DNA of 64,000 nucleotides from the NCBI GenBank assembly GCA_027490095.1, contig JAIXYT010000007.1, positions 1 to 64,000 on the forward strand, written 5' to 3'. This document shows, piece after piece, positions 24,108 to 52,953 of the stretch. Numbering within the stretch: the stretch's first letter is position 1; each line of letters opens with the position of its first letter. This DNA comes from Sphingomonadales bacterium (GTDB taxonomy: Bacteria > Pseudomonadota > Alphaproteobacteria > Sphingomonadales > Sphingomonadaceae). The notes below the pieces were generated by a model, which did no database searches, was not told where the DNA came from, and worked only from the letters and a program-made list of their open reading frames with translations. The position numbers were made by a program, and so were the translations under genes.

Positions 24108-24509
24108 ATGGATGAGCCGGTAACGCAACTGGCCTGTCCGAGTGCGCGCGCCGAGCCGGGAAATCTGCTCTACGGGCATGTGTCCGAAGGACAGGTCCAT
24201 CGGCTCGGCACGCCCATTGCGGTCACGCCGGAATTCGTGGACGCCGTGTCAGGCAACGGCCCGCCGGAGCAGCGATTCCGCTTTGCCGGCACCTGCCAGG
24301 AGGGGCGCTGCGCCCAGTGGACCGGAACGGGTTGCGGCGTGATCGAACGGGTGCTGGCAGACCTGCAGCCGGCAGCCGGTGCGGGCCCCCTGCCCCGATG
24401 CTTTCTGCGCTCGACCTGTCGCTGGTTCGCGCAGGCAGGTGGCACGGCCTGCAGCGCCTGCAGCCATGTCGTCACTGATGCCCGAAAGTCGGTGGGGGCT
24501 CAGGCCTGA
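24108..24509 (+). CDS. Cysteine-rich hypothetical protein, possible metal/Fe-S binding (133 aa)
   Basis: C-x4-C-x7-C ... C-x5-C-x10-C-x2-C pattern; start 4 nt after upstream stop with TGAGGAA overlapping it. Confidence 0.72.
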   Translation: MDEPVTQLACPSARAEPGNLLYGHVSEGQVHRLGTPIAVTPEFVDAVSGNGPPEQRFRFAGTCQEGRCAQWTGTGCGVIERVLADLQPAAGAGPLPRCFLRSTCRWFAQAGGTACSACSHVVTDARKSVGAQA

Positions 24510-25393
24510 CGAAAGGGCTGCACTGCGATCCGCAGGGCCGTTGCCAGCACGGCTTCGTCCTCGGGGCGAATGCCATCGGCGGTGGGCACCTCGAGGAAGG
24601 CGGCGACCACCAGCGGCGCCCGGTGCGGAGGCCACAGCACCGCGATGTCGTTGATCCGGGTCGGCCTGCCCGGGCCGTGGCCCGTGCCCGTCTTGTCGCC
24701 GACCCGCCAGCCAGCCGGCGCCCCGGCCCTCAGGCGGCGCAGGCCTGTCTGCGTGTCCTCCATCCACTGCGCCAGGTCTGCCCGGGATTCGGGCGTCAGC
24801 ACGTCGCCCACCACCAGCGCGGCCGTGGTTCTCGCCACGGCTTCGGGCGTGCTCGTGTCCCGCGGGTCGCTTCCGGTCACCAGGTTCATGTCGGGCTCGT
24901 AGCGATCGATCCGCGTCACCTGGTCACCGATCAGGCGCAGCCGCCGGGTGACGCCCTCAGGCGCACCCAGCTTGCGCATCAGCAGGTTTGCTGCAGCATT
25001 GTCGCTGGTCTTCTGCGTGCCCTCGGCCAGATCCCGCACGGTCAGCGACTTGCCGGCAAAAGGCCCCGCCACCGGCGATGGCGGCACAAGATCCGCCTCA
25101 AGGATCGGCACCCGGTCGCCGAGCCCAAGTTCGCCTTGGTCTGCTGCCTGCAGGACCAGCCCAGCCAGGAACAGCTTGAAGGTGGAGCAGAGCCCGAAGC
25201 GCTCGGATTGGCGATGCCCGCTGATGCGGCCTGTGGCGGTGTCGAGCAGCGCAAGGCCAAGACGATCGGCCGACGCCGCTTCCAGCCCGGCGAGCGAGGT
25301 GGGCGCAACCGGCGCAGCGCCCCCGACGACCAGGCCGCCCAGTCCTGCCAGGACGCCCCGGCGCGCAAGTGGCCAATCGTGCCGATGCCCCAT
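24500..25393 (-). CDS. Class A beta-lactamase
   Basis: CSTFK (S70xxK), SDN, EPDMN (E166xxxN), KTG; twin-arginine-like leader [17 protein letters not shown]. Confidence 0.93.
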
Positions 25394-27666: not shown

Positions 27667-28112
27667 GCGGCGCCCGTGAACATGAAGGTGCCGGCCACAT
27701 GCGCGATCGGATGATCCGGATCGCCGTCGTGCGCGATGCCGCGGGTGAAGGCCACGCGCCGTGTCATCTTGTAGCATTCGGCCCGGCCGACCACCGTCTT
27801 GCCCGGCTCGGCGGGCCGCAGATAGTCGCATCGCAGGTCCAGCGTGGCGTGCGGCTCCATCTTGCCCCGCGCCACCAGCACCGAGAAGCCGGCCGCGGAA
27901 TCCATCAGGCTGAAGATGGTGCCCGAGGCGATGACCCCCGTTTCGGGATAGGCCACCAGCTGGGGCGCATAGGGCATCTGCAGCTCGACCCAGCGGTCGC
28001 CCATCGCGCGGAAGCCGATTCCCAACGCCTGCAGATGCGGAACGGCCGACATGAAGCGGTCGACATAGCGCCGCAGCCGCTCATCCTCGGAAAGCGCCGG
28101 CTTGTCGGTCAT
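27663..28112 (-). CDS. PaaI-family thioesterase (hotdog fold)
   Basis: IASGTIFSLMDSAAGFSV; ATLDLRCDYLRPAEPGKTVVGRAE. Confidence 0.86.
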   Translation of the reverse strand: MTDKPALSEDERLRRYVDRFMSAVPHLQALGIGFRAMGDRWVELQMPYAPQLVAYPETGVIASGTIFSLMDSAAGFSVLVARGKMEPHATLDLRCDYLRPAEPGKTVVGRAECYKMTRRVAFTRGIAHDGDPDHPIAHVAGTFMFTGAA

Positions 28113-28519
28113 GCGGCAAGCCGGCTTGCAGCCTCGCGGACGCGGGCGATCATGTTGGGGACGCCCTGCGTGCGGTTGGCCGAGAGATGGCGTTTCAGCC
28201 CCAGCGCCTCCAGCTCCCCCTCGATCGGGGTCGCCAGGATCTCGGCGGCCGTCTTGCCGTCGACGAGGCTGACGATCAGCGCGACAACCCCGCGCGTGAT
28301 GTCGGCATTGCTGTCAGCCTGGAAGCGCAGCCGGTCGCCATCGGCCAGGGGATAGACCCACACATCGGCCGAACAGCCCGGAACCTTTGTGGCAGCGGTC
28401 TTCAGCGCGGGGTCCATCGGCGCAAGCCCGCGCCCGAAGTCAATCAGGGCACGGTACCGGTCGTCAGCGTCCAGCGCGGCGTCCCACTCGTCGACGAAGT
28501 CCTGAAAGGCGAAAGGCAT
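28109..28519 (-). CDS. sufE: SufE-family cysteine desulfuration protein
   Basis: KVPGCSADVWVYPLADGDRLRFQADSNADITRGVVALIVSLVDGKT (catalytic Cys motif). Confidence 0.92.
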   Translation of the reverse strand: MPFAFQDFVDEWDAALDADDRYRALIDFGRGLAPMDPALKTAATKVPGCSADVWVYPLADGDRLRFQADSNADITRGVVALIVSLVDGKTAAEILATPIEGELEALGLKRHLSANRTQGVPNMIARVREAASRLAA

Positions 28520-28575: not shown

Positions 28576-28899
28576 TTATGGCCGCGGCTGGTCGCGCCGG
28601 GTGTCCCGCGGCGGGATCGCCCGCAGCTTCTCGATCTCGTCGGCCAGCTGGCGGCCGGGATCGGTTGCCAGCTTTTCCAGCGTGATCACCCGGTCCTTCA
28701 AGCCGGCGATCTCCTTGCGCAGCTGGGGCACGTCGTCGAGCTGCCCCATGCGGACGTCGAGGTTCTCCATCCGCACATAGGGGTTGTCGGCCGAATAACG
28801 CTCCCAGCGGCGGGTTTCCTTGTTCCAACGCCCGCCGGCCGCAACCCGCCCGATCACCACGATTGCGACGATCAGGACGACGGCTTCCCAGAAATCCAT
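28576..28899 (-). CDS. Psp-operon-associated small membrane/coiled-coil protein (X3)
   Basis: 107 aa, N-terminal TM, C-terminal LKDRVITLEKLATDPGRQLADEIEKLRA motif shared with neighbours. Confidence 0.78.
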   Translation of the reverse strand: MDFWEAVVLIVAIVVIGRVAAGGRWNKETRRWERYSADNPYVRMENLDVRMGQLDDVPQLRKEIAGLKDRVITLEKLATDPGRQLADEIEKLRAIPPRDTRRDQPRP

Positions 28900-28938
28900 G
28901 GTCTCATGCTCCCCCGGTTGCCCCGGTCACTCAGGCGC

Positions 28939-29238
28939 TCAGTGGCGCAGATTGTCGATTTCGCGGCTGAGGCGTCGGCCATCGTCGGTGGCGATCCGCT
29001 CCAGCACCTGCACCCGATCCTTCAGCGCGCCGAGCTCGGCCTGCAGCTGCGCATTCTCGGACGTGACCAGCTTCAGCCGCTCCAGCGCCTCGTTGTTCTG
29101 CACCGGCTTCAGCGCCTGGCCCCAGCTGCCTTCCAGCGGATAGCCGTGCTTCACCCGCAGCCAGGTGGTGAACACCCATCCGGCGATTGCGGCCATTCCC
29201 AGCACCACGAAGGCGGGATGTGTCATCAGGTCCAGCAT
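28939..29238 (-). CDS. Psp-operon-associated small membrane/coiled-coil protein (X2)
   Basis: 99 aa, N-terminal TM, C-terminal LKDRVQVLERIATDDGRRLSREIDNLRH. Confidence 0.78.
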   Translation of the reverse strand: MLDLMTHPAFVVLGMAAIAGWVFTTWLRVKHGYPLEGSWGQALKPVQNNEALERLKLVTSENAQLQAELGALKDRVQVLERIATDDGRRLSREIDNLRH

Positions 29239-29241
29239 GTC

Positions 29242-29487
29242 TCAGTTCCCCAGTCTGTCGATTTCGTCGGCGAGGCCGATGCGCTTGTCCGTCACGATGC
29301 GCTCCAGCACCACGATCCGCGCCTCCAGCTTCTCGATCCGGGCCTGTGCGGCCCTGTCCATGTCCATCGCCCCTCGGGCCATCAGGTCCAGTTTCTTGTC
29401 CTGGATCTTGCGCCAGTTGGTCATCACGATGGCCACGATCGGGATCATCAGCGCGAAAATCGGAATCAGTACGCCAAGGCTGTTCAT
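29242..29487 (-). CDS. Psp-operon-associated small membrane/coiled-coil protein (X1)
   Basis: 81 aa, N-terminal TM, C-terminal LEARIVVLERIVTDKRIGLADEIDRLGN. Confidence 0.78.
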   Translation of the reverse strand: MNSLGVLIPIFALMIPIVAIVMTNWRKIQDKKLDLMARGAMDMDRAAQARIEKLEARIVVLERIVTDKRIGLADEIDRLGN

Positions 29488-29523
29488 CCAAATGCCCCTC
29501 TCTCGCCCAGTCCGTTGCCCAGG

Positions 29524-29916
29524 CTATTGCTGGCGCAGGTCGTCGATCTCGCGCGCCAGGCGGCTGTTCGGGCTGGTGTAGGTCAGCTCGATGTCGCGCA
29601 GCCGGCGGTCGATGTCGCGGAAGCTCGAGCGCACTTCGCGGATCGAGCGGCCGGGCGCGGCGCGGGTCTTCTGCCAGAACTGCCGGTCCTCTGGATCGGC
29701 CTCTTCCAGGGCATAGACGCTGCCCGGCTTGGCATCGGCCATCCAGCCGATCACGAAGTAGATGAGGACGGGGGCGCCGCTGCCGAACAGCGTGGCGAGC
29801 ACGGTGCCGACGCGCACCCAGAGGACATCGAAGCCGGTGTAGTCGGCGATGCCGGCGCAGACGCCCATCAGCTTGGCATTGCGCTTGTCGAGGTAAAAGC
29901 CCGTGCGGCGTGCCAT
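29524..29916 (-). CDS. pspC: Envelope stress response membrane protein PspC
   Basis: RRTGFYLDKRNAKLMGVCAGIADYTGFDVLWVRVGTVLATLF PspC domain; C-terminal coiled coil. Confidence 0.93.
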   Translation of the reverse strand: MARRTGFYLDKRNAKLMGVCAGIADYTGFDVLWVRVGTVLATLFGSGAPVLIYFVIGWMADAKPGSVYALEEADPEDRQFWQKTRAAPGRSIREVRSSFRDIDRRLRDIELTYTSPNSRLAREIDDLRQQ

Positions 29917-29974
29917 GGTCAAATTCCTTCCTGTTCCCTCTTGGCCGGGCCCGTTCGTGCCGGGCCCATGGCGT

Positions 29975-30274
29975 TCAGATTGCGCGGTCCCGCCGCTGAA
30001 GCTGCGGGTGAAGTTCCACATTGTTCAGTTCGTTGCGGAGGTCGGTGATCCGGGCCGGTTCGCCCCGGTCGGCGGCGATGATCCGCTCGATCGTGGTCAT
30101 CCGGTCATCGAGGCGCCGCGCGATGTCGTGCAGCTCGTCCAGCAGGTTCTCGTCCTCCAGCGTGATGCTCTTCGCCTGCTTCCACTTGGTCATATAGTGA
30201 AGGAGCAGCCAGGGCAGCCCGACGAAGATGGAGAGGACCGCGGTCAGCGGGATGGCGGCTTCATAAGCTTCCAT
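29975..30274 (-). CDS. pspB: Envelope stress response membrane protein PspB
   Basis: TM plus LPWLLLHYMTKWKQAK...RMTTIERIIAADRGE; between pspA and pspC. Confidence 0.9.
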   Translation of the reverse strand: MEAYEAAIPLTAVLSIFVGLPWLLLHYMTKWKQAKSITLEDENLLDELHDIARRLDDRMTTIERIIAADRGEPARITDLRNELNNVELHPQLQRRDRAI

Positions 30275-30289: not shown

Positions 30290-30958
30290 TCAGTGCTTGG
30301 ACTGCATGCGGGCCTTGAGCTCGGCGAGCTCGGCGGCGACCGCATCGGTGGTGCGAAGCTCGGAAATCTCCTCTTCCAGGCTCTTCGGGACGGGGGCGAG
30401 ATCATAGACCTCGGCACGACCCTCGGCCAGATCGACACGGCGCTCCAGCACCTCGAAGCGGGAGAAGGCCTCCTCGACCCGGTTGCCGCGCGTCATGGCA
30501 CGAGCCCTCGCCCGGGTCTGCGCGCTTTCCAGGCGGGTCATCAGCGCATTCTGCCGGCTGCGCGCCTCGCGCAGCTTGGCTTCCAGCTTGGCGATGTCGT
30601 CCTCGAAGGCGCGGAGCTGCTCGTCGAGCGCGTCCACCTCGCCCTTCAGCATGGCGGCCGTCTGGCCCACCTTCTGCTTTTCCATCAGGGCAGCCGTCGC
30701 CAGGTCCTCGCGCTCCTTGGACAGCGCCAGCTCGGCCTTGTCCGCCCAGTTGGCCTGCGCCTGCTCCAGCTTCAGGATGGTGCGCCGCATTTCCTTCTGG
30801 TCGGCGATGGTGCGCGCGGCAGAGGCGCGGACTTCGACGAGCGTCTCCTCCATCTCCATGATCACAAGGCGGATGGTCTTGGCCGGATCCTCGGCGCGTT
30901 CGAGCAGGTCGCTCACATTGGCCTGGATGATGTCGCGGGCGCGGGAGAAGATACCCAT
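30290..30958 (-). CDS. pspA: Phage shock protein A (PspA/IM30 family)
   Basis: MGIFSRARDIIQANVSDLLERAEDPAKTIRLVIMEMEETLVEVRASAARTIADQKEMRR; 222 aa coiled coil. Confidence 0.97.
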   Translation of the reverse strand: MGIFSRARDIIQANVSDLLERAEDPAKTIRLVIMEMEETLVEVRASAARTIADQKEMRRTILKLEQAQANWADKAELALSKEREDLATAALMEKQKVGQTAAMLKGEVDALDEQLRAFEDDIAKLEAKLREARSRQNALMTRLESAQTRARARAMTRGNRVEEAFSRFEVLERRVDLAEGRAEVYDLAPVPKSLEEEISELRTTDAVAAELAELKARMQSKH

Positions 30959-31112: not shown

Positions 31113-31295
31113 TCAGGATGCATGCGCACCCCGGGGATCGGCAGGCGGATTGCTGGAGGAGGCGGACAACCGGGCCCCGTCCCGCTCGACGGCAAGCGCC
31201 GGGCCGGTCGCCACCAGCAGCGTCAGGCCGGCGACCAGGATGGCAATGGTGCCGAACAGCGGCGCCTTCACCGGGGATTGGGAACGGGCAGTCAT
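31113..31295 (-). CDS. Small predicted membrane/exported protein, 60 aa, first ORF of the psp operon
   Basis: GAGGAG upstream; MTARSQSPVKAPLFGTIAILVAGLTLLVATGPALAVERDG...; lies between the sigma54-type promoter and pspA. Confidence 0.6.
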   Translation of the reverse strand: MTARSQSPVKAPLFGTIAILVAGLTLLVATGPALAVERDGARLSASSSNPPADPRGAHAS

Positions 31296-31329: not shown

Positions 31330-31345
31330 TGCAGCTTCCGTGCCA
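31330..31345 (-). promoter_or_regulatory. Putative sigma54 promoter of the psp operon
   Basis: Minus strand TGGCACGGAAGCTGCA: one mismatch to TGGCAC-N5-TTGCA; opposite to pspF. Confidence 0.72.
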
Positions 31346-31475: not shown

Positions 31476-32534
31476 ATGGCAGACAAGCCCACCCAACTCA
31501 TCGGCCAGTCCGGCCCCTTCCTCGACGCCGTCGAGCGCGCCAGTGCGGCCGCGGCCCTCAGCCGCCCCGTCCTCGTCGTCGGCGAGCGCGGCACCGGCAA
31601 GGAAATGATCGCCGAACGCCTGCACCGCCTGTCGCCGCGCTGGGAGGAGCCGCTCGTCAGCCTGAACTGCGCAGCACTTCCCGAAACCCTGCTCGATGCC
31701 GAGCTGTTCGGCTACGAGGCCGGCGCCTTCACCGGCGCCGTCAAGGCCCGACCGGGCCGCTTCGAGGAAGCCGATGGCGGCACCCTCTTCCTCGACGAGG
31801 TGGGCATGCTCACTGCTGCGGGCCAGGAGCGGTTGCTGCGGGTGGTCGAATATGGCGAGCTCACCCGCCTGGGCAGCACGCGCGTCACCCAGGTGGACGT
31901 CCGCGTGGTGGCCGCCACCAACGAGGATCTTCCGCGCCTCGCGGAAAAGGGCCGCTTCCGCGCCGACCTTCTCGACCGCCTCTCGTTCGAGGTCATCACC
32001 CTGCCCCCCTTGCGGGCCCGCCGCGAGGATATCCGCCAGTTGGCCGACTTCTTCGGCCGCCGCATGGCCTCGGAGCTTGGCTGGCGCGGGTTTCCGGGCT
32101 TCACGCCGAAGGTGCTCGAAGAGCTCGAGGCGCATGACTGGCCGGGCAACGTCCGCGAGCTCAAGAACGCCGTGGAGCGCGCTGTCTATCGCTGGGGCGA
32201 GGCGGACCGCCCGGTGGGCATCCTCGATCTCGATCCGTTCGACAGCCCCTGGCGGCCCACGGGTGCCTTCGCAGGCCCTGCGGCCGCCCGTGCAGGCCTG
32301 CCCGACATATCGCCGCCGGCAGACCTTCAACAGCCTGTCGCGCAACCGGCCAATGATCCGGACGGCGATGCCCCGAAGGATTTCCGCGGCGCCGTCGCCC
32401 GCTTCGAACGCAGCCTTCTGGAACAGGCACTCGCCGCAAGCCGGCACAACCAGCGCAGGGCAGCCCAGATGCTGGGGCTCAGCTACGACCAGCTGCGCCA
32501 CTGCCTGAAGCGGCACAATCTGCTGGCAGGCTAG
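31476..32534 (+). CDS. pspF: Sigma54-dependent activator PspF
   Basis: GERGTGKE Walker A, ELFGYEAGAFTGAVKARPGRFEEADGGTLFLDEV AAA+ (GAFTGA), C-terminal Fis-type HTH; no receiver domain; divergent from pspA. Confidence 0.94.
   Translation: MADKPTQLIGQSGPFLDAVERASAAAALSRPVLVVGERGTGKEMIAERLHRLSPRWEEPLVSLNCAALPETLLDAELFGYEAGAFTGAVKARPGRFEEADGGTLFLDEVGMLTAAGQERLLRVVEYGELTRLGSTRVTQVDVRVVAATNEDLPRLAEKGRFRADLLDRLSFEVITLPPLRARREDIRQLADFFGRRMASELGWRGFPGFTPKVLEELEAHDWPGNVRELKNAVERAVYRWGEADRPVGILDLDPFDSPWRPTGAFAGPAAARAGLPDISPPADLQQPVAQPANDPDGDAPKDFRGAVARFERSLLEQALAASRHNQRRAAQMLGLSYDQLRHCLKRHNLLAG

Positions 32535-42948: not shown

Positions 42949-43026
<78 letters not shown>

Positions 43027-52878: not shown

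Positions 52879-52953
<75 letters not shown>

Follow-up and report, generated by a model that had tools for sequence, protein, structure and literature searches.

Downstream of pspA in the window (the whole stretch of 64,000 nucleotides that was analysed, from a Sphingomonadales bacterium), pspB and pspC are followed by three further small genes, whose products are here called X1, X2 and X3. Psp biology has been modelled largely on enterobacterial PspA, PspB, PspC and PspF. The question raised by this locus is whether X1–X3 are Psp components at all and, if so, what they might contribute to the response. An earlier note on this DNA had described the region as an expanded psp operon in which five consecutive membrane proteins carried related C-terminal tails on divergent N-terminal anchors, and had proposed a multi-sensor or decoy array feeding one PspA/PspF switch.

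Gene order and predicted control of the psp locus

The five open reading frames of the earlier note were found on the minus strand with correct coordinates, and the tails that it quoted were their translations. The expansion of the operon was borne out as well: pspB, pspC and X1–X3 lay downstream of pspA and reached up to a sufE-like gene, in the minus-strand order pspA, pspB, pspC, X1, X2, X3 and sufE-like, with intergenic gaps of 3–58 bp. The better start of pspC was at 29916, which gave a protein of 130 aa. The features of the locus were as follows:

31476..32534, plus strand: pspF, divergent sigma-54 activator, start inferred at MADKPTQ
31330..31345, minus strand: predicted sigma-54 (-24/-12) promoter TGGCACGGAAGCTGCA, 1 mismatch to TGGCAC-N5-TTGCW
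31113..31295, minus strand: small leader ORF of 60 aa with one hydrophobic segment and a GPA motif, first gene past the promoter
30290..30958, minus strand: pspA (TIGR02977 E=4.7e-77, over cut-off)
29975..30274, minus strand: pspB (PF06667 E=1.8e-20; TIGR02976 over cut-off)
29524..29916, minus strand: pspC (PF04024 E=4.1e-16; TIGR02978 E=5.4e-34, over cut-off), C-terminal tail related to the X tails
29242..29487, minus strand: X1, group C tail protein of 81 aa (tail model match; sub-threshold full-length PspB match)
28939..29238, minus strand: X2, group B tail protein of 99 aa (tail model match; homologs in the family)
28576..28899, minus strand: X3, group D tail protein of 107 aa (tail model match)
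28109..28519, minus strand: sufE-like gene, downstream boundary of the array

X1–X3 were encoded within the pspFABC operon in their own locus, in the loci of relatives and in an independent record, a placement characteristic of the PspB family. The orthologs of pspF were divergent from pspA in the compared loci, and the gene is so annotated in the syntenic record of Sphingomonas parapaucimobilis. Elsewhere in the window, an ORF with STFK, SDN and KTG motifs (24500-25393, minus strand) resembled a class A beta-lactamase, and two tRNA genes were recognised by Rfam (42949-43022, plus strand; 52882-52953, minus strand).

The sequence features expected of the PspF/sigma-54 regulon, an upstream sigma-54 site and a divergent pspF, were both present. 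A sigma-54 site with at most two mismatches was located upstream of pspA in all 36 loci, at a distance of 259–539 bp except for one at 60 bp, and the 3.2 kb downstream contained no sigma-54 site with one mismatch or fewer in these 36 loci. The region yielded no sigma-70-type promoter. If the predicted PspF/sigma-54 promoter drives the operon, most accumulation of the X proteins should come after induction; such timing would suit effectors or adaptors no less than primary sensors.

In nearly all of the 36 loci, the stretch from the sigma-54 site to pspA contained a small ORF equipped with a ribosome-binding site. The ORFs in this leader position were mostly 35–61 aa long, with one hydrophobic segment and often a GPA motif (L034-L068; L110:3418-3564), and their pooled pN/pS was 0.39 in other sphingomonads. 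The equivalent gene is annotated as a hypothetical protein in NZ_CP155749.1, and E. coli has no gene annotated at the leader position (NC_000913.3). In Zymomonas mobilis, ZMO1062 is numbered between ZMO1061 and pspA (ZMO1063). One paper listed it as hypothetical and another named it pspD (PMC3495753, PMC8645129); the latter found it upregulated together with pspABC. Judging from the locus numbering, the leader gene probably corresponds to ZMO1062/pspD.

The tail module and its relation to PspC and PspB

Queried against the whole 3.15 Mb genome, X1 recovered, besides itself, only X3 (E=0.047) and X2 (E=0.2) at E<=10. An X-tail model of 36 positions was built from 39 diverse X-tail rows, without any PspB or PspC. 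Over the genome it returned X2, X3 and X1 at E<=9e-14, values that are in-sample because the window's own tails were among the 39 rows, followed by the PspC tail (E=0.21) and one match at 1.35. The informative part is thus the absence of other matches in the genome; the model found nothing else except, weakly, the PspC tail, so the tail is not a generic coiled coil.

The X-tail HMM also matched every one of the 36 PspB and 36 PspC proteins, with medians of 13.6–13.7 bits (13.2 bits for the window's PspC). Among the controls, column-shuffled HMMs reached at most 9.3 bits for PspB and 5.4 bits for PspC, shuffled targets 7.4 and reversed targets 8.4 bits, and PspA, a different coiled-coil protein, gave a maximum of 12.0 and a median of 3.0 bits. 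In profile-profile comparisons (hhalign), the tail proteins of groups A–D scored 31.2–45.8 against the PspC tail (column-shuffle maximum 17.0; probability 77–95%) and 26–42 against PspB (column-shuffle maximum 17; probability 93% for group C). Group E proteins resembled groups C and D, and their similarity to PspB/PspC was not above shuffles in the same kind of comparison. PspB compared with the PspC tail scored 16.0, at noise level. For E. coli, whose PspB and PspC sequences were verified against NC_000913.3, the X-tail HMM matched PspB (15.2 bits, E=0.0027) and did not detect the PspC tail (1.7 bits).

Judged by these profiles, X1–X3 have a single module in common; its kinship with the sphingomonad PspC tail is clear, and with PspB it extends over a core of ~20–30 residues. 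The tail likeness thus withstood the shuffled-sequence HMM test that the earlier note had named as its own check, being above shuffles and specific genome-wide, and the proposal of paralogous tails on divergent anchors was confirmed by the tail homology and the differing anchors. The picture of five related tails held in part: the relation was strong among X1–X3, moderate for PspC and weak, over a short core, for PspB, whereas the mutual likeness of the PspB and PspC tails did not rise above noise.

The AlphaFold2 model of X2 (mean pLDDT 75.7, pTM 0.33) comprised a membrane helix (8-31), a loop and a long helix (46-98). Positive residues immediately followed the span, and the loop carried the GYPLExSWG motif; in the juxtamembrane motif WVFTTWLRVKxGYPLExSWG, the GYPL and WG residues were invariant across group B. 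For X1 and X3, an N-terminal span and a cytoplasmic tail were predicted by sequence inspection only, X1 having one predicted span and a predicted zipper tail. Groups A and B had a hydrophobic residue at every zipper d position, and group B had an invariant Asn at an 'a' position (N62). Asn at the 'a' position of leucine zippers is linked to parallel dimers. The PspC model was of low confidence (mean pLDDT 63.3) and was used for its long C-terminal helix only, which was common to the X2 and PspC models. Foldseek detected no significant PDB match for the X2 model, and PDB sequence searches with PspB and PspC returned nothing informative.

Distribution of the array and co-occurrence with pspA

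In the window's family, 104 of 121 genomes had a homolog of X2. The matching named loci, 35 in number, belonged to Sphingomonas, Sphingopyxis, Sphingobium, Novosphingobium, Erythrobacter, Sphingosinicella and others, which points to Sphingomonadaceae as the family. Every full locus had a divergent pspF and then the order pspA-pspB-pspC-tail genes-sufE, and a SufE ortholog came after the array in 34 of the 35 fetched loci; the remaining contig (L034) ended before it. The neighbourhood check proposed earlier therefore came out in favour of a linkage to pspA that is conserved in the family. The tail genes between pspC and sufE fell into groups, typically in the order A-B-C-D-E, and 12 of the 36 loci (window counted) had exactly this set; the number of tail genes per locus ranged from 3 to 8 among related genera (group E counted). 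The array in the window was C(X1)-B(X2)-D(X3), without A and E, like that of the closest named locus, L044. By gene order and tail similarity, X1–X3 are part of a larger sphingomonad array. In Sphingomonas parapaucimobilis NZ_CP155749.1, the tail genes are annotated as hypothetical proteins. Group E proteins (RIEIADLKERIRKLEAIAAGVDL ending) were encoded by the last gene before sufE in 32 loci (L035-L068) and were missing in the window and its nearest named relative.

Groups A–D were each monophyletic in a quick tree (support 0.72–0.99). The group labels came partly from motif rules written after the sequences had been viewed, and the tree, made without those rules, agreed with them. Between groups, the anchors had median identities of 0.17–0.23 (0.34 for A-B) and the tails 0.36–0.55. 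Tails within one locus were no more alike than tails from different loci, which, with the monophyly of the groups, indicated that the paralogs are old and distinct. Within-locus gene conversion, considered as a cause of the tail likeness, was rejected on the same equality. X1–X3 were under purifying selection in the window's genus, with pN/pS of 0.26–0.50 (X1 0.29–0.50; X3 0.26–0.41) compared with 0.38–0.46 for pspB.

Among the 121 genomes of the family, 109 had both pspA and a tail gene, seven had neither, four had pspA only and one had a tail gene only (Fisher p=4e-8, shared ancestry ignored). Two of the four pspA-only genomes (G099, G119) were highly fragmented assemblies, and the sole tail-only genome was 66% complete. 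In the sister families of the order, all 45 tail-positive sampled genomes had pspA, with one or two tail genes each; these tail sequences, which were outside model building, matched at E=1e-8 to 1e-15. Most of the copies were unlinked, lying within 2 kb of pspA in only ~6 genomes (G418, G426, G444, G447, G457, G459). Seventeen sister-family genomes were tail-negative, four of them without pspA, and the pooled co-occurrence had a Fisher p of 1.6e-9 (shared ancestry ignored). The tail genes are almost never found without pspA, which suggests that they are probably unstudied parts of that stress system, by which the inner membrane is protected.

In a class-wide sample, 6 of 290 genomes matched, five of these in the window's family; the tail family is thus rare beyond the order, and no broader origin in the class was found. 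The simplest history would be that one ancestral C/D-like gene was functionally tied to pspA and that expansion inside the psp operon followed in the window's family. Two outlying arrangements were also observed. In the sister-family genome G418, a second tail gene (L105:5896-6168), separate from the psp operon, lay immediately downstream of an rpoD-like gene. In G272, a genome outside the order, two adjacent tail genes (L074, 1246-1440 and 1498-1728) lay beside a dut-like gene, ~81 kb from pspA.

Possible roles and comparison with known Psp proteins

The reading that we favour, with about even confidence, is that X1–X3 form a sphingomonad family of Psp inner-membrane proteins acting as PspF-induced adaptors that provide membrane docking for PspA and PspBC. 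Sequence comparison has established its groundwork: the tail homology, the orthologous groups, the position after pspC, the purifying selection and the near-obligate co-occurrence with pspA even when unlinked. X1–X3 would be co-transcribed from the sigma-54/PspF promoter, and their level would rise once membrane stress frees PspF from PspA. The tails would pair with one another and with PspB/PspC, so that the X proteins could serve as extra membrane docking or adaptor subunits bringing PspA to the stressed membrane, and they might adjust how PspA is held off PspF. Their different anchors may direct them to distinct sites or complexes in the membrane. In E. coli, both PspA binding and psp induction require the zipper of PspC (PMC3068692); from this role and the zipper features of the X tails, we infer that the latter would pair and add PspA docking sites after induction. 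The conserved position of the array, the co-occurrence with pspA, and the tail homology to PspC/PspB above shuffles support the adaptor reading, as do the single upstream sigma-54 site with none internal in all 36 loci, the zipper heptads, and the long C-terminal helix in the X2 and PspC models. It is weakened by the E. coli PspC tail, which the X model missed, by E. coli PspB-PspC pairing, which goes through membrane regions and does not need the zippers (PMC3068692), by the low confidence of the PspC model, and by group E, which has no similarity to PspB/PspC above shuffles.

The diversity of anchors might instead point to sensing. Here each X anchor would detect a different membrane stress and the common tail would signal to the PspA-PspF switch in the manner of enterobacterial PspB and PspC, which are positive signal transducers (PMC3068692). 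Anchors differ between groups A–D, the tails are common and each group is monophyletic, which suggests that each anchor type was kept separately. However, with the predicted span at the N-terminus the X proteins would have no periplasmic domain, under predicted PspF control they would themselves result from induction (as would PspB and PspC), and related genera differ in copy number (3 to 8); such sensing is possible but rather unlikely. A combinatorial sensor/adaptor, in which anchored zipper proteins form varied hetero-oligomers with PspB/PspC and many membrane-specific inputs reach one PspA/PspF switch, would be unlikely; no such arrangement was found described for any Psp system.

Accumulation after induction, as predicted from the PspF promoter, together with a tail common to the X proteins and PspC, would also suit a negative-feedback or decoy array, the X tails competing for PspA with PspB/PspC, or for PspF with PspA, and ending the response. 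Yet the paralog tails are equally alike within and between loci; each group is an old clade that has kept a distinct anchor and tail, without homogenisation inside a locus, which argues against interchangeable decoys, and the invariant GYPL and WG juxtamembrane residues of group B exceed the needs of a bare decoy. We regard this role as distinctly improbable. The X proteins could also simply belong to the PspF regulon as small proteins that stabilise the membrane or confer secretin tolerance, acting without PspA signalling. E. coli PspG, a membrane effector of the PspF regulon with PspC as binding partner (PMC3068692), offers a precedent, and operon position and predicted sigma-54 control fit; the PspC-like tail and the dependence on pspA even when unlinked nevertheless suggest physical coupling to the Psp complex and leave this reading a low probability. 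Coiled-coil heptads are easy to align by eye, and a chance run of unrelated small coiled-coil membrane proteins might have produced the same impression. It was refuted by the shuffle controls, the genome-wide specificity of the tail model and the co-occurrence with pspA, with conserved ortholog order and purifying selection also against it, and its probability is negligible.

No description of the array, its groups or its pspA dependence was found in the open-licence literature, most subscription journals being outside this search. The earlier statement that no description was known thus holds for the array itself within that literature, but not for its elements: PspB duplicates in psp operons were recorded in 2024 (PMC11237479; accession cited there AOL22920.1), and the same paper describes the C-terminal tail of PspC as a divergent PspB domain fused to PspC. 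The array is therefore best seen as a variant, spread across the clade, of a system already known. In an entire family of common environmental bacteria, the same predicted operon has retained several additional and distinct PspB/PspC-like proteins. This adds Psp components so far annotated only as hypothetical proteins, offers a testable natural experiment on the role of the PspB and PspC tails, and may bear on the stress tolerance of industrial and bioremediation sphingomonads.

Against the curated PspB models, X1 stayed below cut-off (Pfam E=0.018, 15.5 of 25.6 bits; TIGR02976 E=0.0011, 19.2 of 51.7 bits), as did X2 (10.1 of 51.7 bits with TIGR02976, no Pfam PspB match), and X3 matched neither PF06667 nor TIGR02976. 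No curated Pfam or NCBIfam family was assigned to X2 or X3, and PF04024, the PspC domain, was not found in X1–X3 at E<=10. The possibility that the X proteins are plain PspB copies was rejected on these cut-offs. PspD and PspG are small enterobacterial proteins of the PspF regulon, and X1–X3, small and under predicted PspF control, would be like these accessory Psp proteins in that respect; the comparison was made via Pfam/NCBIfam, with no matches. The X tails share with the PspC C-terminal tail (TIGR02978) a similar E....T[SD]....L..EI..LR pattern, although the X proteins are without the PspC domain. Their likeness to PspB (PF06667/TIGR02976) lies in the position in the psp operon and in the predicted architecture of one N-terminal membrane span and a cytoplasmic helical tail. 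In contrast to PspB, the X tail extends into a second conserved L..EI..LR stretch, and the operon of X1–X3 retains a separate true PspB.
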